From: Cupriavidus taiwanensis | Lineage (GTDB): Bacteria > Pseudomonadota > Gammaproteobacteria > Burkholderiales > Burkholderiaceae | Length of the DNA stretch: 64,000 nt | Direction of reading: 5' to 3' | Assembly: GCF_900250075.1 (NCBI RefSeq) | Contig: NZ_LT977071.1 | Location: forward strand, 1,030,033 to 1,094,032 | Part shown: piece by piece, positions 5,922 through 19,174 of the stretch | How positions within the stretch are numbered: the first letter of the stretch is position 1 | Layout of the letters: the number at the start of each line of letters is the position of its first letter | Notes under the pieces: model-generated | Told to the model about the DNA's origin: nothing | What the model saw: the letters and a program-made list of their open reading frames with translations, nothing else | Database searches by the model: none | Made by a program: the position numbers and the translations under genes

Positions 5922-8900
5922 TCACGCGCCCGCCAGCCCTTCGTCCAGGATCGCCGCCACCGCCTGCAGGTTGGGTTCGAGCACCAGGTCGAAATGGCTG
6001 CAGGGCACCTCGGCAATGGTCAGCCCGCCCAGCGCAACGCGCCGCCACAGCGACAGCGGATCGCCGCGCTGCTGCTGCCTGACCGCGGCGCGCAGGTAGA
6101 GCACCGGGCCGGCATGGTACGGCCGCGGCCGATAGGTCGTCATGGCGCGCACCATGGTCTCGCGCACCTGCCGCAGCGCCGGCGGCAGCGATTCGGTAAA
6201 CGCGTCGGGCTTGCAGGTGATGCCGCCGCGGCGCATGCCGACACCTTCCGCGGCCCGGCGCAGCGCGTATTTCAGGTAGCGCACGCGCTGTGCCGCCGGC
6301 ACCGCGCGCAGCTTGCGCAGCTGCCAGCCGGGATAGTTCCAGCAGTAGCGCATCCAATTGCGCCACGGCAGGAAGTGCTCGCAGACATAGGTGTCGAGCA
6401 GGCACAGCAGCTCGACCTGCTCGCCGGCGCGGGTCAGCTGTTGCGCCATCTCGTACACCACCAGCCCGCCGAACGAGTAGCCGGCCAGCGCGTAGGGACC
6501 GCGCGGCTGCAGGCTGCGGATCTGTTCGATATAGCTGGCCGCCATGTCCTCGACACGCCGCTGCGTCGGCTGTTCGCCGTCAAGCCCGCGTGCCTGCAGC
6601 CCATAGACCGGGCGCGAGGTGCGCAGCGCGTTGATCATGCCCCAGCACTCCATCACCGAGCCGCTCGCGCCATGCACCAGGAACAGCGGCGAGCCGGTGC
6701 CGCCGCGCACGGGCACCAGGTTGGGCGAAGTCCGCGGGGACGCGGCTTCGTCGATGGCCGCGGCCAGGCCTGCAATGGTGGGCGCGAACAGCAGTGTCGC
6801 CAGAGGGATCGTGCGGCCGGTCGACTGGTGCACGTCCGCCAGCAGCCGCGCGGCCAGCAGCGAATGTCCGCCGAGGTCGAAGAAATTGTCGTCGCGGCCG
6901 ATCGGGGCGAAATCGAACAAGCGCTCCCACAGGGCCTGCAGATGACGTTCGAGCTGCTCGCGCGATGTGCCGGGCGCGGGCAGTTCGCGCGCCGCCAGGT
7001 TCAGGACCGGATGATTGCGGATGGCGTCGAGGCAGTCCGGATTGCGCAACGCCGCGGCGTTGCCCGCCGGCAGGCCGTTGACCGCATTGCGCGCCGCCGC
7101 TTCGGACAGTTTGCCGTTATGCGTGGCCGGCAGCTCGGGCACGGCCAGGATGCGGTCGGGCACATGGGTGGGCGAGGCGCGGCGCGCCAGTTCGCGGCGC
7201 ACGTGCGCGGCGAGCGCGCCGGTCAGCGCGACGCCGTGCTGCAAGACCAGCAGCAGCACCATGCGTTGCTCGTACCGCTGCGCGTGGGTGCGGTCGGGCG
7301 GTGCCGTTTGCGCGCGCTGCTCGACCACCATCGCCTCGCGGATCTGCGGGATATCGCGCAGCACCCGATAGATCTCGCCCGGCCCGACGTTGACGCCGCG
7401 CACATTGAGCACGCCGTCGGAACGGCCATGCAGCCGCGCCGTGCCTTCGGGCGGAAACTCGATCCGGTCGCCGTGGGTCCACACGCCCGCGTTGGCCGAA
7501 AAATACGCCTTGTGGAAGCCCTGGCCGTCGATGTCGCCATAGAAGCCCAGCGGCCGCGACGGGAACGGGTTGGCGCACACCAGCTCGCCGATGCCGCTGG
7601 TGGGCGCGCCGTGTTCCCACGCCTGCACATCGAGCGCCAGGCTCTTGCACTGCGCTTCGCCCGCATAGACCGGCAGGTTCGGATTGCCCAGCACGAAGCA
7701 GCCGAGGATGTCGGTGCCGCCGGAGATCGACTGCAACGGCAACGCCTTGACGTGATCGCGCACCCATTCGAACTGCGCATCGAACAGCACCGATCCGGTC
7801 GACATCATCGCGCGCAGTGCGCCCAGGTCGAACTGCTGGCCGGGCACCAGGCCGGCGTCCTCGCACATCTTCAGGTAGGCGGGACTGGTGCCGAACACCG
7901 TGACGCGCTCTTCCGCAACCAGCCGCCACAACGCGTCGACCGTGGCGATCGGGCCGTCATAGGTGACGATCTCGACCCCGGACGCCAGCGCCGACAGCTG
8001 CCAGTTCCACATCATCCACGCGCAGGTGGTGTGGAAGTACATGCGGTCGCCCGGCCGCAGGTCGGAGTGCAGCCGGTGCTCCTTCAGGTGCTCCAGCAGG
8101 CTGCCGCCGGCGCCGTGCACGATGCACTTGGGCTTGCCGGTGGTGCCCGACGAGAACATGATGAAAAGCGGATGGTTGAACGCAAAGCGCTGGAAGGAGA
8201 ACTGCTCTGCATCGCCACGGCCGATCAGGTCCGCCAGCGCATGGACCGGCTGGCTGACGGTGGCCGGCAAGGCGCCGTCGTCGAGCTGGATGATGCCCTG
8301 CAGCGAAGGCAGCGCGGCAGCCAGGCCGGCGACGTTGTCCGCCAGCGGGATGCCGGTGTCGAAGGCGCGCTGCGCGGTGTGCGCGAGCAGCAACCGCGGT
8401 GCCAGCGGGGCGAAGCGGTCGAGCAGGGTCTCGACGCTCATCTCGGCGGCGGCGGTGGACAGCGTGGCGCCGAGCGCGGTCACGGCGAGCGCGGCGACGA
8501 TGGCCTCGGCGTCGTTGCGCATCACGGCCACCACGCGATCCCCTTCGCGCAGCCCCAGTTGCGACAAGGCATGTGCCGCGCGCGCGACACGCTCGCGCAG
8601 TTCGCCCCGGGTCAGGCGCTCACGCCGGCCATCGGCGTGGCAGGCGGTCAGCGCCGGGGCGTCGGGCCCAGCGACTTCCAGCCCTAGCAGGTTGTCCGCG
8701 TAGTTCAGCAACAGGTTCGGGAAGAAGCGGGCATGTTCGCAATCGTCGCCGACGCAGACCGGTTCTGGGCTGCCCGACCACGCCAGCCCCTCTGACCACT
8801 GCAGGAAGCAGCGCCAGAAAGTCCGGTATTCCCGTACCGAGAAATCGTGCAGCGCGCCGTAGCGGTGAAACGACTGGCCAGTACACGCCTGCAGCGCCGC

Positions 8901-9017
8901 GGTAAACGCGGTCATCTGCGACGCCACGGCGCGCTCGGGCGAGCTGGCGTAAATGGGAGTGCGACCCTGGTTGACGCTCGGGCAGAACGAGGCGTCCAAC
9001 AAATAAAATCGATCCAT
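5922..9017 (-). CDS. Single-module A-PCP-TE synthetase with acetoacetyl-CoA-synthetase-like adenylation domain
   Basis: A 1031-residue three-domain enzyme. Residues 1-640 form an adenylate-forming domain with [10 protein letters not shown] (288-297), SGGTD (432-436), THGD (514-517), [11 protein letters not shown] (531-541) and THNGKLSE with catalytic Lys636. Its N-terminal style (YADNLL, WMMWNW, ISGGTDI) is that of acetoacetyl-CoA synthetases, not of amino-acid-specific NRPS domains. Residues 690-755 are a carrier domain with phosphopantetheine Ser719 in GGHSL. Residues 775-1025 are a type I thioesterase with Ser848 in GYSFGG, Asp875 and a C-terminal His (CSHFD). It should activate a carboxylic or keto acid, load it on the carrier and release or condense it, in the manner of the furanone synthetase RalA of Ralstonia. 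AGGAG precedes ATG 9017. The PPTase follows directly. The product is unknown. Confidence 0.88.
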
Positions 9018-10448: not shown

Positions 10449-12812
10449 TTACGATCGCGTAAACAAGGCCTTCCTGATGATGGCGTGCACGCCCCAGTTG
10501 CCGTTCACTACCTGCGTGATGCCGAAATCCACCGCCACCGAGATCAGCGTCACCGCCTCGTCCTCGCTCAGCCCCTTGACCGTCATCAGGAAGCGGCGCG
10601 TCTTGCGGAACGCATCGCGCATGGCGTCGTCGAGCGTGGACTTCAGGTAGATGTGGCTTTGCGCCATCTGGCCCAGCTCGGTCAGGTGGTTGGGCGAGCT
10701 GAAGCCGTGCAGGATCCATTCGTCGGCGGTCTCCACCAGCGGATAGCTCAGGTCCGCGAACGGCGCGCCGCGTTCGATCATGGTGCTCTTGTGCAGGATC
10801 AGCTGGAACTCACCGGTCAGCGAGCATTCGATGGCGGTGCCGCACAGCTCGGAATCGCCCTGCGAGGCATGCGGGTCGCCGATCGACAGCAGCGCGCCCG
10901 GCACCGCCACCTTCAGGTACACGCTGGCGCCGCGCGTGACGCGCCAGTTGTCGAGGTTGCCGGCGAAGCTGGAGGGCGGGATCGAGTCGATCAGGCCGTC
11001 CTGCGCGGGCGCGACAGCGATCACGCCGAAGTGCGGCCGGATCGGGATCTCGATATCGCGCAGCACGTCGTGGTTCTTGACGATGGTGTCGTGGTCGACC
11101 GGGACGCCGGGATAGTCGATGGTGGGATGCAGCACGCCGAACGGATCGCGCTGCGGCGTCCAGCGGAAGCTGTAGACGGCGCGGGCGCAGCCGTCGGCGC
11201 GTTCGCAGTCGATCTCGAACACCGTCACCACTTCGCGCTCGCGCGGCTCGGTCAGCATGTCGCGGTAGTGGAAGCCCCACCACGTCGCGGCATTGCTGCC
11301 GAAGGCGCGGCCGGCAAAGCGCGGGTTGGCGCACGGGCGCGGGCGCACGTCGAGGATGCGCACCTCCAGCACGTCGCCGGGCATGGCGCCGCGCACCGCG
11401 ACCGGGCCGGTGCAGATATGCACGCCGAAGCCCTCGCCGGCACCGCGCCCGTAGACCGAGGCGTCGATCGGGCCGGCGCCCCGGCGGTCGACGTTCTTCT
11501 GCTCGGCGGTCCAGTGGAACACGCTTTCGGCGCCGGGGTCGCCGTCGATCATGCGCTCGCGGTCGTCCGACGCGTGCTGGGTCAGCGTTTCGATGGTGAC
11601 GGTGTCGCCCGACATCACTTCCAGCACGGGCGGCAGTTGGTGGCTCAGGTAGCCCCAGTGCACGGTCTTGTCGGTGGCCTGCAGCCAGTGGTGGCGGCCT
11701 TCCGGACGCGCCGCGTGCGAGCGGGCCTGGGTGATGGGGACCACGGACGGCGCGGGCAGCGCACGTGCGCGCGCACCGTCGTTGGCCGGGGCGCGCTGTG
11801 GCGCGGGGCCGCGCCTGGCATCGGCCGGCAGCCCGCGCGACACATTCAGCGGCGGGCGTTGCGCAGGGGTGCCCGCGGCCTGCTCGCGGTAGGCGCGCGG
11901 CGAGATCCCGAACTGCTCGCGAAACGCGTGGCTGAAGTGCGAAGGATCGTTGAAGCCCCAGCGATAGCAGATGTCGGAGACCGAGAGCTTGTCGTACTGC
12001 GCATTGCCCAGGTCGGCGCGGCATCGCTCCAGCCGGCTGGTGCGCAGGTAGGCGGAAAAGCTGCTGCCGGACTTCTCGAACAGCTTCTGCAGGTAGCGCG
12101 CCGACATGTGTTCGTCCGCGGCGATGGCGCTGAGGCTGAGCTCGGGCTCGGCCAGGCGCGCGTCGATGCGGCTGCAGACCCGCGCGAACACCGCCGCGCG
12201 CGACGGCGTCATGTCCGCTGGCGCGCTCGGCTGGTTGTCAGACAGGGCCGCGCCCAGGCAGGCGACGATGGTGCTGTCGAAGGGCTGCACCGCGCGGTCG
12301 TCGGCGGACACCAGGGTGTCGATGCTGGCCGCCATGGACTGCAGCAGGCGCGCGAACAGTTCCGCCGCGTCGCCGTCCAGCACCAGCGCCGAGCGCGGCA
12401 ACGGCGCGGTGATGCGCGCATGCAGCAGGGCCGGGCCGATATGCACGGTCAGCAGCCGGAAAGCGGTGGTGAGCGCCACCTTGCGCGCCGCGTGCTCGGG
12501 CACGCAGACCACCTGGCCGGGACGCAGCGGCTGGCGCAGGTCCGGGCTGGCGAGGTGGGCTTCACCTTCGGTCAGCATCAGCAGCATCAGGCCGCGGCCG
12601 TCGCCGGCGGTGATGGCCAGCGTCTGCGGCACCGACGCGATGCAGGTCAGCCCGATGCCGGCGGGCGTGGTGCGCGACTGGATCGTGCCGTGCAGGGTGT
12701 GGTCCGCGCACAGGCTTTCGCACTGCAGGCGCGCGGCCCTGAGTTCGTCGCGCCATGCGGCGCCGCGCCGGTTGCGCGGATAGGCTTCGGTGGAAAAACG
12801 CTGCAGATGCAA
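10449..12812 (-). CDS. AraC-family regulator fused to acetamidase/formamidase
   Basis: One uninterrupted frame of 787 residues holds two proteins. Residues 1-200 match an AraC_binding_2-type sensor (starting LQRFSTEAYPRNRRGAAWRDEL). Residues 210-311 are an AraC double helix-turn-helix (MSARYLQKLFEKSG, then WGFNDPSHFSHAFREQFGISPRAYRE). A Pro/Ala/Arg-rich linker (312-372) follows, then a full acetamidase/formamidase domain (373-787) with HWGY, HICTGPVAV, GDVLEVRILDVRP, DNWRVTRGA, SIGDPHASQGD and FGITQVVNGNWG. The enzyme family releases ammonia from short amides. TTG 12812 is favoured, with AGGGAGG 5 bases before it; an in-frame ATG at 12860 lies inside a 17-bp hairpin and lacks a ribosome site. 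It ends an operon with a separate amidase and two XapX genes. Confidence 0.9.
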   Translation of the reverse strand: MHLQRFSTEAYPRNRRGAAWRDELRAARLQCESLCADHTLHGTIQSRTTPAGIGLTCIASVPQTLAITAGDGRGLMLLMLTEGEAHLASPDLRQPLRPGQVVCVPEHAARKVALTTAFRLLTVHIGPALLHARITAPLPRSALVLDGDAAELFARLLQSMAASIDTLVSADDRAVQPFDSTIVACLGAALSDNQPSAPADMTPSRAAVFARVCSRIDARLAEPELSLSAIAADEHMSARYLQKLFEKSGSSFSAYLRTSRLERCRADLGNAQYDKLSVSDICYRWGFNDPSHFSHAFREQFGISPRAYREQAAGTPAQRPPLNVSRGLPADARRGPAPQRAPANDGARARALPAPSVVPITQARSHAARPEGRHHWLQATDKTVHWGYLSHQLPPVLEVMSGDTVTIETLTQHASDDRERMIDGDPGAESVFHWTAEQKNVDRRGAGPIDASVYGRGAGEGFGVHICTGPVAVRGAMPGDVLEVRILDVRPRPCANPRFAGRAFGSNAATWWGFHYRDMLTEPREREVVTVFEIDCERADGCARAVYSFRWTPQRDPFGVLHPTIDYPGVPVDHDTIVKNHDVLRDIEIPIRPHFGVIAVAPAQDGLIDSIPPSSFAGNLDNWRVTRGASVYLKVAVPGALLSIGDPHASQGDSELCGTAIECSLTGEFQLILHKSTMIERGAPFADLSYPLVETADEWILHGFSSPNHLTELGQMAQSHIYLKSTLDDAMRDAFRKTRRFLMTVKGLSEDEAVTLISVAVDFGITQVVNGNWGVHAIIRKALFTRS

Positions 12813-12841
12813 TGGAGCCTCCCTGGCGTCTGACTGCCACA

Positions 12842-12881
12842 GCGCCGGCGCGGCGGACATGGCGGTCCGCCGCGCCGGCGC
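12842..12881. repeat. Perfect 17-bp inverted repeat (hairpin) upstream of the fusion gene
   Basis: Positions 12842-12858 and 12865-12881 are exact reverse complements with a 6-base loop; the arm is GCGCCGGCGCGGCGGAC. It lies 30 bases after the stop of the second XapX gene and 30 bases before the TTG start of the AraC-amidase gene. No T-run follows on the minus strand, so it looks like an intercistronic mRNA stabiliser or processing element rather than a terminator. The alternative ATG 12860 falls in its loop. Confidence 0.7.
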
Positions 12882-12910
12882 AACGTTGCTGGCGAAGGCC
12901 CGGCGATGCC

Positions 12911-13102
12911 TTAGCCGATCAGCAGCTGCCCCCGCATCGCGGCTACCAGGACAAAGCCGGCGAAGGTGCCGAAGATGGCGAAGATGCCGCCCAGCACGTT
13001 CGGGGCCGGTATCGGCGCCCGTACCGCAGTGTAAAGAAGACCGGTCACCAGGCCAACGGCCGCGGCCTGCAGTTCGGTACTGCCCAATGCGATTTCCACC
13101 AT
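12911..13102 (-). CDS. XapX domain-containing small membrane protein (second copy)
   Basis: A 63-residue protein starting MVEIALGSTE. It has two hydrophobic segments and the XapX hallmark PIPAPNVLGGIFAIFGTFAGF, with Pro-Ile-Pro-Ala-Pro-Asn linking them. XapX proteins are tiny inner-membrane proteins of unknown function. ATG 13102 has GGGGGA just upstream; the frame also allows an ATG 6 codons earlier (13120). It is 31 bases after the first XapX gene and about half identical to it by eye, so a tandem duplication is likely. It belongs to the amidase operon. Confidence 0.85.
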   Translation of the reverse strand: MVEIALGSTELQAAAVGLVTGLLYTAVRAPIPAPNVLGGIFAIFGTFAGFVLVAAMRGQLLIG

Positions 13103-13133
13103 GTCATTCCCCCAACGCATGAGTTGCGATGAT

Positions 13134-13343
13134 TCAGTGGCTGGCCGGCGGCCGCCCGAAGGCGATGGTCCGGCGCCACGCGTGCACGATCAGGTAGCCG
13201 ATGTAGGTGAACAGGATCGCGCAGATCCCGCCGGTGACATTCGGCGCGGGAATCGGCAGGTCGAGCCAGGAATACAGGGTGCCGGTCACCAGCCCGACCA
13301 CCAGCGCCACCAGTTCGTTGCGGCCTATGTAGACGTATTGCAT
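13134..13343 (-). CDS. XapX domain-containing small membrane protein (first copy)
   Basis: A 69-residue protein (MQYVYIGRNELVALVVGLVT...) with two membrane segments and the motif LPIPAPNVTGGICAILFTYIGYL. The C-terminus (RRTIAFGRPPASH) is basic and soluble. GGAGAA precedes ATG 13343. It starts 26 bases after the stop of the upstream amidase gene. Its place between two amidase genes suggests a membrane role in amide uptake or signalling, for example a small channel-like pair with the second copy; that is inference from position only. Confidence 0.87.
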   Translation of the reverse strand: MQYVYIGRNELVALVVGLVTGTLYSWLDLPIPAPNVTGGICAILFTYIGYLIVHAWRRTIAFGRPPASH

Positions 13344-13369
13344 GCGCGTTCTCCGTCGATGGTGCCGGC

Positions 13370-14395
13370 TCAGCCCTTGCCCTTGGGCGGGAAGATGGTG
13401 CGCGGCATGGTGCAGTGGATGCCCTGGGTGCCATCGACCACCTGGGTCACGCCGAAGTCCGCCGACACGCTCATCAGCGAGTAGGCATCGTCGCGCGACA
13501 GCCCCTGTTGCTCGGTCAGCAGGTGAATCATGTCGCGCGCCGCGTTGCGGCCGGCTTCGTCGAGGTCTTCATGGAAGCCATGCACCACCCAGCAGTCCGG
13601 TGTTTCCAGCAGCGGCGAGGGGAAATGGAAGTCCTTGCGCAGCACGATCTGGAACAGCACGTTCAGCGAGGCCTCGATCGCGGTGCCGCTGACTTCGCCG
13701 TCGCCCTGCGAGATATGCGGGTCGCCGATCGAGAACAGCGCGCCGTCGACCTGCACCGGGTAGTACATGGTGGCGCCCGCGCCGATGCGCCAGTTGTCGA
13801 TATTGCCGCCATGCAGCCCCGGCTCGACCGTGGTGACGCGGCCGCGCGCGTCGGGTGCGACGCCGGCGGTGCCAAGGTGCGGCCGCACCGGGACACGCAC
13901 GCCGGCCAGCGCCGGCTGGCGGCAGCATTCGCGCTCGTCGACCACCTTGCCGGGGATGGTCAGCTTGCCGGGATAGTCATAGGCGTAGAGCGCATGCGCG
14001 GTGTTGGAGGCCTGGTCCAGCTCGTAGATGGTGACCCGTTCCTTCTCGAACTCCTTGTACAGCTGGCCCCAGCTGGCGGCGACATTGGCGCCGAAGCGGA
14101 AGCGCGGAATCATCTGCAGGTAGCGCACCTCCAGCACGTCGCCCGGCCTGGCGTCTTCGACATAGATCGGCCCGGTCATGATGTGCACGCCCGGGTGGCG
14201 GTCGTCGTGCGGGATCTTGCGGTAGATCTCGCGGATGGCGTCGTCCATCATCAGGTCGGGGGCGTCGCCGGCATGGTGGGTCACCGCTTCGGCGCGGATC
14301 AGGTCGCCGCTCTTCACGGTCAGCGCGGGCGCCTGGGTGGCATCGAAGTAGCCCCAGTGGATGGTCTCCGGGCGGGCGGGCAGGTCGTGCAGCAT
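13370..14395 (-). CDS. Acetamidase/formamidase family protein
   Basis: A 341-residue enzyme of the FmdA/AmdA family: HWGYFDATQAPAL near the N-terminus, HIMTGPIYVEDARPGDVLEV, DNWRIGAGATMYYPV, SIGDPHISQGDGEVSGTA and DFGVTQVVDGTQG near the C-terminus. The family hydrolyses formamide, acetamide or other short amides to ammonia and the acid in the cytoplasm. It is shorter than formamidases of about 400 residues but has all conserved blocks. AAGGAGA lies 6 bases before ATG 14395. It is the first gene of an operon with two XapX genes and the AraC-amidase fusion, whose enzyme half is a clear but divergent paralogue. Confidence 0.93.
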   Translation of the reverse strand: MLHDLPARPETIHWGYFDATQAPALTVKSGDLIRAEAVTHHAGDAPDLMMDDAIREIYRKIPHDDRHPGVHIMTGPIYVEDARPGDVLEVRYLQMIPRFRFGANVAASWGQLYKEFEKERVTIYELDQASNTAHALYAYDYPGKLTIPGKVVDERECCRQPALAGVRVPVRPHLGTAGVAPDARGRVTTVEPGLHGGNIDNWRIGAGATMYYPVQVDGALFSIGDPHISQGDGEVSGTAIEASLNVLFQIVLRKDFHFPSPLLETPDCWVVHGFHEDLDEAGRNAARDMIHLLTEQQGLSRDDAYSLMSVSADFGVTQVVDGTQGIHCTMPRTIFPPKGKG

Positions 14396-14806
14396 GGTTG
14401 TCTCCTTGGTTCTTTTTTCCGCCGTATCCGCGACCGCAGCCGCAGCCGTTCAGCGGGTGAGCGGCTGGCTTCGACGAGGTGGTCAGGGATGCTGGCGATG
14501 CGTGGCAGGCAGGTCTTGCCTGTTCCCGCTGGCGGGGCTTGCGTCGCCGCGGTGAGTCAATACTAGGGATGGCGCGGGCAAGGGCAGTAGGGCGATTCCC
14601 CCCAAACTCTTGTGTTGCCGCGCACTAAGGTAAACCCGCTGTACGCCGCCGCCATCTGGCTGGCGGCGGCGGAGTGTTAATTTTTGGTTGACACCGTGTC
14701 AATGATCCATGGAATTGTCGACCACGCCTTGACAGTGCAAAATCCGGGCGAAGCCCGGGCCGATCCATCGCAAGCCCGGGAGAGACACACACAAGGAGAT
14801 CGCCGC
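14396..14806. other. Divergent intergenic region, 411 bases
   Basis: It separates the amidase operon from the CoA-transferase gene and should hold both promoters. Visible structure: a 10-bp GC hairpin at 14645-14670 followed by TTAATTTTT, the perfect palindrome TTGACACCGTGTCAA at 14688-14702, and TTGACA at 14729-14734. No credible gene lies in it. Confidence 0.55.
14688..14702. promoter_or_regulatory. Palindromic operator candidate TTGACACCGTGTCAA
   Basis: A perfect 7+1+7 inverted repeat, 105 bases upstream of the CoA-transferase start and 293 bases upstream of the amidase start. Its left half includes a consensus -35 hexamer (TTGACA), so a repressor bound here could block a promoter reading right. 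The cognate regulator is unknown. Confidence 0.4.
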
Positions 14807-16021
14807 ATGGCTGACACCAATCAATCCCCGCGCCTGCCGCTGGCTGGCGTGCGCGTGCTGGACCTGTCCCGCGTGCTGGCCGGACCGATGTGCACGCAGG
14901 CGCTGGGCGACCTGGGCGCGGAGGTCATCAAGGTCGAACACCCCGGCCGCGGCGACGATACGCGCGACTGGGGCCTGCGCGTGGGCACGCGCAACACCGC
15001 CTACTTCAACAGCGCCAACCGCAACAAGCAGTCCATCGGCATCGACCTGCAGCAGCCCGAAGGCCAGCGCATCGTGCGCGAACTCGCGGCGAAGTGCGAC
15101 GTGCTGGTGCAGAACTTCAAGTTCGGCGGCATCGACAAGATGGGGCTGGGCTACGAGGCGCTGAAGGCGATCAACCCGGGGCTGGTCTATTGCTCGATCA
15201 CCGGCTACCGCAGCAACGGCCCGGAGGCGACCCGCCCCGGCTACGACCTGGTGGTGCAGGGCGAGGCCGGCCTGATGGCGCTGAATGGCGAGGAAGGGCA
15301 GGGACCGCTCAAGTTCGGCACCGCGGTGGTCGACATGTTCACCGGCATGTATTCGGCGCAGGCCGTGCTGGCCGCGCTGTACGACCGCCAGCGCACCGGC
15401 CAGGGCCGCCACGTGGAAATGGCGCTGTACGACTGCGGCCTGATGATCACCGCCTACTACGGCCTGGAGGCGCTGCTGATGGGCGAGGACCCGCCCAAGT
15501 ACGGCAATGCCCATCCGTCGATCGTGCCCTACGGCGTGTTCGACGCGGCCGATGGCCCGCTGGTGATCACGGTCGGCAACAATGCGCAGTTCCAGCGCTT
15601 CTGCACCGAGGTGATCGAGCGCCCGGACCTGGCCGCCGACGAGCGCTTCGCCACCAACACCGGCCGCTCGGCCAACCGCCAGGCGCTGCTGCCGGAACTG
15701 CGCGCCGAACTGGCGCGCCGCCCGCGCGAGCTGCTGCTGGCACGCCTGAGCGCCGCCGGCATTCCGTGCGGCGAGGTGCTGGGGCTGCTCGAGGCGCTGC
15801 GCTCGCGGCGCTCGGCCGAAGCCGGCCTGCTGGCCGAACTGCCCAATCCGGAGACCGGCCGTGTGGAAGTGCTGGCGCCGCCGTACCGGCTCGACGGCGA
15901 ACGCGTGCCGGTGCGCGCCGCGCCGCCGCTGCTGTCGCAGGACACGGAGCGCGTGCTGGGCGATTTGCTCGGCATGGATGCGGGGCAGGTGGCCGCGCTC
16001 AAGGCGGCCGGCGTGGTGTAA
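14807..16021 (+). CDS. CaiB/BaiF (family III) CoA-transferase
   Basis: A 404-residue protein with the family III CoA-transferase pattern: VRVLDLSRVLAGP near the N-terminus, DLGAEVIKVEHPGRGDDTR, NRNKQSIGIDL, and the catalytic Asp in GRHVEMALYDCGL. These enzymes move CoA between organic acids through an aspartyl-CoA thioester. ATG 14807 follows AAGGAGA at a good distance; the frame is open back to 14684 but that part lies over the palindrome and promoter region. It stands alone on the plus strand, between the amidase operon and the convergent sensor kinase gene. The acid substrate is unknown. Confidence 0.92.
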   Translation: MADTNQSPRLPLAGVRVLDLSRVLAGPMCTQALGDLGAEVIKVEHPGRGDDTRDWGLRVGTRNTAYFNSANRNKQSIGIDLQQPEGQRIVRELAAKCDVLVQNFKFGGIDKMGLGYEALKAINPGLVYCSITGYRSNGPEATRPGYDLVVQGEAGLMALNGEEGQGPLKFGTAVVDMFTGMYSAQAVLAALYDRQRTGQGRHVEMALYDCGLMITAYYGLEALLMGEDPPKYGNAHPSIVPYGVFDAADGPLVITVGNNAQFQRFCTEVIERPDLAADERFATNTGRSANRQALLPELRAELARRPRELLLARLSAAGIPCGEVLGLLEALRSRRSAEAGLLAELPNPETGRVEVLAPPYRLDGERVPVRAAPPLLSQDTERVLGDLLGMDAGQVAALKAAGVV

Positions 16022-16060: not shown

Positions 16061-17398
16061 CTACGACGCGTCAGGCTGCTGCGGCTCCGGCCACTTGCCC
16101 TTGCGCGGGAAGCGCATGTCGAACTCGGTAAACACGTGTTCCTCGGAGCGGCAGCTGATGCCGGCGCCCCAGCTGCCCAGCACCTTCTGGCAGAACGCCA
16201 GGCCGATGCCGGTGCCGCGGTGCGCGGGATAGGAGAAGAAGGGCTGGAACATCCGCGCCAGCACCTGCGGCGGCACACCGGTGGCGGTGTCGCGGAACAC
16301 CACGTGGACCGCGTCGGGCTCGACCTCGCAGCGGATATGGATGGTGCCCTTGCCGGCGCGCCGGATTGCTTCCAGCGCGTTCTTCAGCAGGTTGGTCGTG
16401 ACCAGGCCGAACAGCTGGGCGTTGCCCATCACGTAGGCGCGGCCGGGCAGGTCCACCGTGACCCGTTCCATGTCGCCCGGTTCGAACGGAAAGCGGCCGA
16501 CGGCGTCGCGGATCACCTCGCCCACTTCGAACAGTGCCTGCGTGGCGTTTTCCGGGTTCTTGGAGTTGGCCACCAGCAGTTCGATGCTGTTGCTGATATG
16601 GGCCAGGTCTGACTCCATCCGGGCCACGGCCTGCATCAGGCCGTCGCGCTGCGGCGTGTCCTGGTCCAACGCCGCCGGCAGCCGGGCCTTGAGGCCCCTG
16701 GCGGTCATGGCCAGGCTGGTCAGCGGCGTGCGCAGCTCGTGCGCGACGGTCGCCAGCGCGGCGGCCATGCCGCGCCGCTTCTGCTCGGCCAGCAGCTGGC
16801 GGTCCATCTTGATCACCACCAGCACCGCGATCACGAAGCCGATCACCGGCAACTGCAGCAGCACCGGCTCCCACGGGATGCCGCCCATGGAGTTGCCGGC
16901 CAGCACGAACAGCGCTATCGCGGCCGCCGCGCCCGAGAACAGGGCAATGGTGGCGAAGGCGGTGTTGAAGTGATACAGGATCACCACGGCGATGATCACC
17001 GATTCGGCCCACACCATCGAGCCGCCGTTCTCCAGGTAGAAAAAGATAAAGGCGAACGGCAGGCCTATCGTGATGGCAAAGAGCGCATAGGGCGGCAGCC
17101 AGCGCCGGCCCGAGAACGCCGAGGCGAACAGCAGCGGCACGAACAGCGCGGTGCAGGCCAGCCGCAGCCACAGGTTTTCATAGGGCTGCGGGAACACATA
17201 GGACCAGATCACGTAGTAAAGCGGGTGCCCCACCACGCCCAGCGCGCCCACCATCTGGATCCGCCGCAGGCGGATGACGCTTTCCTCGTCCAGCAGCGTG
17301 GCCCGCGCGGCGGTCTCGAACACGGCCTGCCATGCCTGGCGCGCCAGCCCGGCAAGGTTGGGGCGGCCGTCCTCGGCTTGCGCTACCTTTGCATCCAT
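16061..17398 (-). CDS. cqsS: CqsS/LqsS-like quorum-sensing sensor histidine kinase
   Basis: A 445-residue membrane kinase. Residues 48-200 hold six membrane segments that open with GHPLYYVIW and PQPYENLWLRL, the signature of alpha-hydroxyketone receptors (CqsS, LqsS; also PhcS). Then come an H-box AHELRTPLTS with phospho-His220, N-box NLLKNALEA, F-box FQPFFS and GTGIGLAF. Unlike Vibrio CqsS it has no C-terminal receiver, as in LqsS, so its signal must go to a separate partner. It starts 51 bases after the stop of the CqsA-like synthase gene on the same strand; the two form a synthase-receptor pair. AGGAG is 11 bases from ATG 17398. The specific ligand is not predictable. Confidence 0.85.
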   Translation of the reverse strand: MDAKVAQAEDGRPNLAGLARQAWQAVFETAARATLLDEESVIRLRRIQMVGALGVVGHPLYYVIWSYVFPQPYENLWLRLACTALFVPLLFASAFSGRRWLPPYALFAITIGLPFAFIFFYLENGGSMVWAESVIIAVVILYHFNTAFATIALFSGAAAAIALFVLAGNSMGGIPWEPVLLQLPVIGFVIAVLVVIKMDRQLLAEQKRRGMAAALATVAHELRTPLTSLAMTARGLKARLPAALDQDTPQRDGLMQAVARMESDLAHISNSIELLVANSKNPENATQALFEVGEVIRDAVGRFPFEPGDMERVTVDLPGRAYVMGNAQLFGLVTTNLLKNALEAIRRAGKGTIHIRCEVEPDAVHVVFRDTATGVPPQVLARMFQPFFSYPAHRGTGIGLAFCQKVLGSWGAGISCRSEEHVFTEFDMRFPRKGKWPEPQQPDAS

Positions 17399-17449
17399 CT
17401 CCAGGACTACTCCTCGCGGATTCCTGCGATCGGCCCGCTTGTGGGATTT

Positions 17450-18700
17450 TCAGGACTTGCGCCGTGCCCGGCGCGTCGAGGACCACTCTTCCAGCCGGAC
17501 TTCGTCGCGGATGCTGGCGAGCACACCGACCAGGCGGTCGATTTCGGTGGCGCCAAGTTTCGCATGCAGCGTAAGTCGCATCAATGCCCGGTTCTTCGGG
17601 GTGGCCGGCGCACAGAATACCGCGCCGAAGATGCCGCGCCGCTGCAGCGCGTCGCGCAGCACCTTCACCTGCGGCTCGGTGCCCGCCTCGAGCCCGATGA
17701 TCTGCTCGGATCCCTCGCTGATGTTGTAGCCCAGCGCGGCGATCGCGTTGCGGGTCTCGCGGGTGATCGCATGCAGGCGCGCGCGGCGCTCGTCCGCGCC
17801 GGCAATGAAGTCCGTCACCGCGTCGAACCACGCGATCTCGTGGCGCAGCAGCCCCGAGCTGAAGATCGCCGGCCGCGATTCCACCGCGTAGAAATCCTTG
17901 AAGGCAGTGGAGCAGGCCACGTAGCCGGCGCGCCCGGCAAAGGCCTTGGCCAGCGACGCGGTGCGAAAATGCACGCGCTCGGACAGCCCCAGCGCCGGCA
18001 CCAGCCCGCCGCCGCGCGGGCCATGCGTGCCCAGCGAGTGCGATTCGTCCACCACCAGCACGCAGCCGGACGCCTCGGCCAGTTCGACATAGTCCACCAG
18101 CGGCGCCACGCTGCCGGTGGTGCTGTAGACCGAATCCACCATGATCACGCCCGGGCCGAAGCGCTCCAGCTGGCGGCGTACATGATCGCAATCGTTATGG
18201 CGCACCGGCACCGCCTGCGCGCCCGCGGCGATGATGCCTTCCCACAGCGAGGCATGCCCGTTCATGTCGATATAGACCGGAATGCCGGGGCCGGCGATGC
18301 ACTGCACCAGGCCAACGTTGGCGGCCCAGCCGGACTGGGCGATCAGCCCGTCCTCGGCCTGCATCAGGTCCGCGATCTTGCGCTCGACCCGCCGCTGCGG
18401 CGTATCGCCGTGCATGAACACGGACGACATCAGCAGCTCCGGCGCGTCATCGACAAAGGCCCGCGCCTGCGCCTGCGCCAGCGAGGCTTCGCCCAGCAGG
18501 CACAGGTAGTCGTTGCTGCTCAGGTGCAGCGCGTCGGGTCCGGGCGTCAGCCCGTGCAGCAGGTGGTCCCCGCCCCAGAGCTTGCCCATGCGTTCCTCGA
18601 AATGCTGCGCCATGCGCGTGGTGATCCAGGGCGGCAGGGTCGGGGCCTTGCTGCGGGAGGCATGGTGGCGGGATTGCACAGGCGCGGCTTCGGAGAGCAT
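17450..18700 (-). CDS. cqsA: CqsA/LqsA-like alpha-hydroxyketone autoinducer synthase
   Basis: A 416-residue PLP enzyme of the alpha-oxoamine synthase fold. Visible are LHLSSNDYLCLLG (58-70), GDTPQRRVE (98-106), NGHASLWEG, VVDESHSLGTHG with Asp218 and His221, and the PLP Lys252 in TASLAKAFAGR. In CqsA/LqsA the enzyme joins an acyl-CoA with S-adenosylmethionine or an amino donor to give hydroxyketone signals; KBL/BioF homologues are the other option. The adjacent CqsS-like kinase decides for the quorum-sensing branch. ATG 18700 has AAGGA 6 bases upstream; the longer in-frame start at 18922 gives an unrelated low-complexity leader. Expression probably starts from the 474-base region upstream. 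Confidence 0.85.
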   Translation of the reverse strand: MLSEAAPVQSRHHASRSKAPTLPPWITTRMAQHFEERMGKLWGGDHLLHGLTPGPDALHLSSNDYLCLLGEASLAQAQARAFVDDAPELLMSSVFMHGDTPQRRVERKIADLMQAEDGLIAQSGWAANVGLVQCIAGPGIPVYIDMNGHASLWEGIIAAGAQAVPVRHNDCDHVRRQLERFGPGVIMVDSVYSTTGSVAPLVDYVELAEASGCVLVVDESHSLGTHGPRGGGLVPALGLSERVHFRTASLAKAFAGRAGYVACSTAFKDFYAVESRPAIFSSGLLRHEIAWFDAVTDFIAGADERRARLHAITRETRNAIAALGYNISEGSEQIIGLEAGTEPQVKVLRDALQRRGIFGAVFCAPATPKNRALMRLTLHAKLGATEIDRLVGVLASIRDEVRLEEWSSTRRARRKS

Positions 18701-19174
18701 CGGTCGTCCTTCAACAGATAAATATGAATCGGAGGGAAGCGGCAAGGCTTGCATGGCGTTTGCGCCAAAGCCAGCCGCCCATGCGTGGGGGGTGCCGGGC
18801 GCAATGTTCCCTGGTGGCGCGCCGGCTGCCGGCGTGCCATGGGACGCGTTTTCGTGTAGCGACCACTGTGCCAGTCTTAGCCAAGGATTGTGACGGGACT
18901 TCCACCAATCCAACGTCTGCATGCAGACTAGGTGGACGGGATAGAACGGTCACGCGGCAGCGCAAGGCGGGCCGGATTCAGCGGGGATTTTTCGCAACGA
19001 AATATGCTTTAGTGAGCACTTTCGCGGGCGCGATGCCGGGCGCTGGGCGGCCCGGGGCGCTGTTGTGGAGTGGATTGGCTTGCTGCTGCGCGGCCGTGGT
19101 GGCCGCGCGTCGGGCAGGGGGCGCGGCCGTGCACGCGCACAGGCCCGCCCCGCCGTAGTGCATAGATCCGGCAA
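18701..19174. other. Intergenic region upstream of the autoinducer synthase, 474 bases
   Basis: It lies between the stop of the acyl-CoA dehydrogenase gene (19175) and the synthase start (18700), both on the minus strand, and should hold the synthase promoter. Visible: an AT-rich patch around 18985-19025, and an 8-bp hairpin GCGCGGCC/GGCCGCGC at 19088-19108, about 66 bases past the dehydrogenase stop. No credible coding frame was found. Confidence 0.5.

Follow-up and report, generated by a model that had tools for sequence, protein, structure and literature searches.

We found that one gene in the window (the whole stretch of DNA that was analyzed, 64,000 nucleotides) encodes an AraC-type transcription regulator and a complete amidase domain in a single polypeptide, and that this regulator-amidase fusion is real (Table 1). 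On balance, we consider it probable that the protein acts as a one-component AraC/XylS-type regulator and controls amide-catabolic operons, with an input domain that derives from an amidase and is possibly still catalytic.

Table 1. Features of the fusion gene and of the neighboring operon, in window positions.
Feature	Position	Strand	Remarks
AraC-amidase fusion gene	10449..12812	-	787 aa, TTG start
PF03069 amidase half, complete	10452..11696	-	residues 373-787
Linker, about 60 residues	11697..11876	-	residues 313-372
DNA-binding domain, double helix-turn-helix	11877..12197	-	residues 206-312
AraC-type N-terminal sensor/dimerisation (cupin-like) domain	12213..12812	-	residues 1-200
AGGGAGG, Shine-Dalgarno-like, 5' of the fusion TTG start	12818..12824	-	read from the sequence
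Small XapX-type membrane ORF	12911..13120	-	TIGR03510, 58.5 bits (cut-off 27.8), searched from 13105
Second XapX-type membrane ORF	13134..13343	-	TIGR03510, 70 bits (cut-off 27.8)
Separate amidase, PF03069	13370..14395	-	341 aa; opens the same-strand run whose last gene is the fusion
Operator-like site	14607..14637	-	about 210 bp before the separate-amidase ATG; conserved in relatives
CoA-transferase family III gene, divergent	14807..16021	+	shares the intergenic region

Architecture of the fusion protein

The initial annotation had described regulator and amidase as one polypeptide, and this architecture was borne out: a single gene holds the sensor, the double helix-turn-helix, the linker and a complete PF03069 domain. 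An ATG at 12860 was considered as the start codon and rejected in favor of the TTG at 12812. In the regulator half, a cupin-like N-terminal sensor/dimerisation domain is present together with the PF12833 helix-turn-helix pair at its C-terminal side, and the amidase half reaches the gathering score of PF03069 and agrees with its fold. The linker is predicted to be disordered (pLDDT below 50 at residues 314-370); near its start lies an RG-P motif, with R326, G327 and P329 invariant among 50 fusions, and the remainder is variable. The best NCBIfam match to the regulator half was FeaR (PRK09685) at 116.4 bits, below the cut-off of 199, and the FmdA formamidase equivalog (NF045496) scored 55.9 bits against the fusion, below its cut-off of 500. 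The protein is classifiable only as AraC-type plus PF03069.

Distribution of the fusion

In a scan of named genomes, the best 80 of 285 relatives were kept, and regulator and amidase lay in one open frame in all 80 loci; the frame error in the linker against which the initial annotation had cautioned was not found. Betaproteobacterial hosts of these loci include Cupriavidus, Paraburkholderia, Pandoraea, Caballeronia, Variovorax, Pseudacidovorax, Rubrivivax and Oxalicibacterium, among others. The gammaproteobacterial hosts are Pseudoxanthomonas and assemblies of Nevskia and Rhodanobacter, and the alphaproteobacterial hosts are Parvibaculum, Beijerinckiaceae and other assemblies.

A second concern, that relatives might lack the fusion altogether, was dispelled by its wide occurrence. 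Sixteen of the 60 genomes of the genus carry it at full length, and five others (G021, G023, G029, G038 and G039) have, among the matches listed, fragments of the amidase half only. At a threshold of 1e-40, matches were found in 49 of 299 genomes of the family: 44 fusions, three unfused pairs (G073, G108 and G244) and two cases of fragments only. Two of the 44 fusions (G145 and G304) matched in two pieces, yet each is one ORF. An even draw across the phylum gave full-length matches in 8 of 398 genomes, our own included; a TAA was reported in one of them (G409), but a single ORF there holds both halves. The draw across the order gave 2 of 399, our own genome and G513.

A plasmid search returned 16 records in which at least 80% of the query was covered, and plasmid fusions add Rhizobium, Neorhizobium, Sinorhizobium and Novosphingobium to the hosts. 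In one of the 16, a plasmid of Rhizobium johnstonii H16 (L142, 8451-10860), the fusion is split into two ORFs, the longer of which retains the helix-turn-helix joined to the amidase. Where the fusion proteins are publicly annotated, they are called amidase or AraC; among the 12 best plasmid records, five are annotated simply as amidase and one as AraC. No description of an AraC-PF03069 fusion was found in the literature among the matches listed.

Origin of the fusion

We placed 46 of 201 distinct amidase domains, retained after thinning by identity, in a tree obtained by a quick search, with four short or distant rows as its root. The domains group as fused, Tat-type, long and short; one row with an end branch of 4.8 (L081_11639), at first counted as short, was reassigned to the distant group. 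The 25 fused rows make up one side of a branch with an SH-aLRT of 99, and a further branch (SH-aLRT 88) unites them with 11 Tat-labeled rows and two others. The Tat label was assigned by a pattern, which missed two rows of the Tat group (L143 and L136), and Tat-like signal peptides are visible in the amidase group that adjoins the fused clade. Since the fused halves appear as a single clade that neighbors Tat-exported amidases, a single fusion event is probable, involving an amidase with exported relatives. The regulator tree was set aside as evidence for a single clade because long-branch paralogues fall among its fused rows.

Unfused regulators of 33-37% identity, without an amidase half, adjoin a short amidase in four genomes (G073, G108, G244 and G660). 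This gene position suggests that the regulator already controlled amidase genes before the fusion.

A separate amidase accompanies the fusion

The fusion travels with a separate amidase gene. Within the fetched DNA, 73 of the 80 loci contain a separate amidase-like ORF (72 if the 42-bit match of L096 is dropped), and one lies elsewhere in the genome for L086, L093, L096, L113, L126 and L135; L058 and L131, which lack a separate amidase nearby, lie on short contigs. Within the genus, a complete short amidase is present in 14 genomes, each of which also carries the full-length fusion, and in 0 of the 44 genomes without it. Genome G030 of the genus has an amidase of the long type, and the incomplete genome G046 has the fusion only.

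One typical operon contains an ABC substrate-binding protein, permease/ATPase, a long amidase, the fusion and RidA. A second typical arrangement, seen in the window, contains a short amidase, a XapX pair and the fusion. The XapX-type tandem (12911-13343, minus strand) is flanked by the separate amidase and the fusion and perhaps serves in uptake. In Caballeronia zhejiangensis (L138, 1278-4557), nitrile hydratase genes and a gene for a GTP-binding protein lie beside the amidase operon; the nitrile hydratase genes agree with an amide substrate.

No sigma-70 promoter was found in a scan of 12700-14900, and a terminator scan of the same interval gave one terminator-like match, equal to the number in shuffles. 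A repeat search within 14396-14806 gave nothing useful.

Two further arrangements were observed on the minus strand of the window. At 5922-9017, an acetoacetyl-CoA-ligase-like enzyme is joined to a carrier (PP-binding) domain and a thioesterase domain. At 16061-18922, an alpha-hydroxyketone-type quorum-sensing synthase (PRK07179, 608 bits, cut-off 428) adjoins a histidine kinase whose best NCBIfam match, LuxN, is far below its cut-off.

An operator-like site precedes many amidase operons

AraC/XylS regulators typically bind two direct half-sites about 21 bp apart, and a pair of CAA(G) half-sites about 22 bp apart is conserved 5' of many amidase operons. In Cupriavidus and related loci, the region 5' of the short amidase is conserved around GGGTTTAC-CTAGT-CGC-ACACAAG, of which Pandoraea has a diverged form, and a related site, GnnCAAGCnnTnGTnCGCnnnnnnACAAG, precedes operons in many other loci. 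The clade of the window departs from the fixed core at the first half-site, with TTTAC instead of CAA, and its site was found by a pattern of its own. At up to two mismatches, this clade-derived pattern has one match in our 6.77-Mb genome, at 14609-14634 of the window. The initial annotation had tied the fusion to transcription of the operon and singled out 14396-14806 as the stretch it might bind; comparative evidence now supports that tie, and the conserved operator-like site falls inside this stretch.

In the only test that kept loci back, the matrix was built from 56 loci, almost all of them betaproteobacterial, and applied to 27 others. Fourteen of the 27 outscored every one of 270 shuffled loci, and 13 did not; for three of the 14, the site duplicates one in the training set, and without these three the count is 11 of 24. 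Among the alphaproteobacterial held-out loci, one of ten (L128) beat all shuffles.

The refined matrix, which like the fixed core derives from the loci that it scores, gave a site of at least 19.3 in 68 of the 80 loci, against a highest score of 19.2 in 237 shuffles; no such site was found in the other 12 of the 80. Sixty-five of the 68 sites lie outside predicted genes, and 64 are within 400 bp of the next gene. A run that holds a separate amidase follows 60 of them (one being the weak ORF of L096), and 40 of these runs also hold the fusion. Of the remaining sites, one leads a run with the fusion only and seven lead runs with neither.

Exact copies of the fixed 12-base core are present in 19 of 88 distinct fusion loci (reversed pattern, 0 of 88), and copies with at most one mismatch in 53 of 88 (reversed pattern, 5 of 88). 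These counts refer to 88 loci because, in the initial set of 91, three pairs had identical amidase ends. At the same tolerance of one mismatch, the core was found in 1 of 34 loci without a fusion, but these amount to 0.16 Mb of DNA versus 1.2 Mb. The matrix score reached at most 6.2 in 16 Tat-type amidase loci without a fusion. Six fusion loci of about 5.3 kb each (L147-L152) scored -1.4 to 6.1, in the same range as loci without a fusion; their flanks are short, and the start of the operon may lie outside them. Three rhizobial plasmid loci have a background matrix score, and in two of them an exact copy of the core precedes the operon. Site-like sequences next to the four unfused pairs score 3.6-14.6, within the shuffle range.

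Additional sites were noted in two places. In three Parvibaculum loci (L128, L130 and L132, about 1540-2410), genes for TauD, an FMN reductase and a Rieske oxygenase, families that were checked in L128, have operator-like sites nearby. Most of these sites differ from the core at one or two positions, and they hint at a larger regulon. In L137, a second site at 11411 (score 18.7) lies 3' of the fusion and 5' of a polysaccharide-deacetylase family gene.

Conservation of the amidase half

Purifying selection is strongest on the amidase half of the fusion. When the window protein was aligned with 49 of the 80 loci (50 fusions), mean pairwise identity was 0.75 for the amidase, 0.61 for the helix-turn-helix, 0.37 for the sensor and 0.23 for the linker. 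The dN/dS of the amidase half was 0.03-0.09 in six pairs, against 0.18-0.42 for the sensor; for the separate amidase it was 0.04-0.12 in five of the same six pairs, like the fused half.

Residue counts were made with the duplicate loci L145, L146 and L162-L164 excluded. Eight polar residues (D480, N619, D621, D646, H648, Q651, E655 and E662) are retained in 96 of 96 fusions, and the same eight are invariant in 112 standalone PF03069 members, with one exception at D480. Their invariance suggests that they are catalytic. Other positions differ in the fusions. H412 is replaced by Q in 92 of 96, against H in all 103 of the T, L and S rows that have a residue there, and G599 by A, T or S in 88 of 96, against G in 112 of 112 standalones. 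Position 616 is F or Y in 94 of 96 fusions, a fusion-specific change. D535, invariant in 110 of 110 standalones, is changed in 24 of 96 fusions and unchanged in the window protein. These substitutions may mean that catalysis was altered or lost.

We rejected H412 as a universal catalytic residue, as it is variable in the eight most distant family members. The idea that the fusions keeping H412 (L084, L113, L126 and L135) act as the sole amidase was also dropped, because all ten genomes searched, those four included, hold a separate amidase. A decayed remnant is rejected by the kept residues and by selection. The invariant residues and the fusion-specific changes, taken side by side, argue that the amidase half differs both from such a remnant and from a plain duplicate of the enzyme. 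The initial annotation had proposed that the enzyme half could sense its amide substrate or titrate the regulator; because the eight family-wide residues are kept, a working enzyme appears as compatible with these data as a pure sensor.

Discussion

In the mechanism that we favor, an amidase related to the Tat-exported lineage would have been joined behind the helix-turn-helix, where that lineage carries its signal peptide, and would serve as a second, enzyme-derived input domain of the regulator. The fusion protein would bind paired CAA(G) half-sites with a spacing of about 22 bp, which have diverged in the window and precede an operon with the separate amidase and often also with an ABC transporter or small membrane proteins. 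Because many genomes, ours among them, have the fusion gene within this run, autoregulation is probable, and the divergent CoA-transferase family III gene is a possible second target. Most likely, the amidase half, as an amide-binding input, would report the presence or turnover of an amide to the regulator. Binding to the site would activate rather than repress the operon. The N-terminal sensor, which is still kept, could be the only input.

A single-chain feedback, in which an AraC regulator hydrolyzes its own inducer with a still-active amidase, seems to us rather unlikely. Substrate turnover on the DNA-bound protein would then set expression of the amidase operon, and the fusions would form a widespread, undescribed class of enzyme-sensing regulators.

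It is unlikely as well that the protein is a trigger enzyme with feedback, whose fully active amidase half destroys the amide bound by the N-terminal sensor. Such a regulator would clear its own inducer, and the fusion would couple clearing to the DNA-bound regulator. The retained sensor domain is in keeping with this, as are the eight polar residues kept in every fusion and a dN/dS resembling that of the separate amidase; however, a separate amidase is nearly always present for the work, and G599 and H412 in most fusions, and D535 in a quarter of them, have been replaced.

The halves might share a chain for co-expression only, the enzyme being an ordinary cytoplasmic amidase without cross-talk with the regulator. 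We judge this improbable, since genes that share a run are already co-expressed, the amidase half bears fusion-specific substitutions and the fusion is kept over three classes while the type of partner amidase varies (short, long or Tat); the long, disordered linker and the highly conserved enzyme half would fit it. An artefact of sequencing or assembly, or a frame open by chance, is hardly credible and was rejected: high-GC DNA does yield long antisense ORFs such as the one overlapping the fusion gene at 10485-12833 (plus strand), but nothing else favors it, and the same single frame recurs across beta-, gamma- and alphaproteobacterial relatives, in all 80 kept loci and at full length in the genus and family genomes counted above.

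As a regulator with an amidase-derived input domain, the fusion would extend the known regulators built from enzymes by a new combination of two modules. Its occurrence in three proteobacterial classes, its unfused homologues and its predicted site make the steps from enzyme to sensor testable, and it might be used as a part for amide biosensors.

Several known systems bear comparison. FeaR-like AraC regulators are closest to the regulator half by NCBIfam model, and four genomes have an unfused homologue of that half next to a short amidase; unlike FeaR, the fusion scores below the 199-bit cut-off and carries an amidase half. The kin of the Tat-exported acetamidase 3b9t bear a signal peptide, whose place the AraC regulator occupies in the fusion. 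As described in PMC10781810, the formamidase cluster fmdCABDEF of Methylophilus methylotrophus includes a putative positive regulator, a porin and uptake genes and is induced by formamide and urea; unlike in the fusion, that account of the cluster lists the regulator as a gene product separate from the formamidase.

Closer in design are regulators that contain enzyme folds. MocR/GabR proteins are described as a GntR winged helix-turn-helix joined by a peptide bridge to a domain of aminotransferase fold (PMC6917764), and direct repeats are expected in many MocR operators (PMC5320631). The fusion resembles them in linking a DNA-binding domain to an enzyme-fold domain. It differs in that its AraC-type half has a sensor of its own and its enzyme half is PF03069, with no PLP-enzyme fold; its domains are an AraC helix-turn-helix and PF03069, and not the GntR winged helix-turn-helix plus aminotransferase-like domain that defines MocR/GntR. 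In BzdR, a shikimate-kinase-like domain was recruited as the effector domain of a catabolic regulator, and its authors report the loss of kinase activity as essential (PMC3602430). Here, too, an enzyme-derived domain sits on the DNA-binding domain of a probable catabolic regulator; unlike BzdR, which shares no enzyme domain with it, the fusion keeps the eight family-wide polar residues. By analogy, the fusion would work like the MocR or BzdR regulators, but with unrelated modules.
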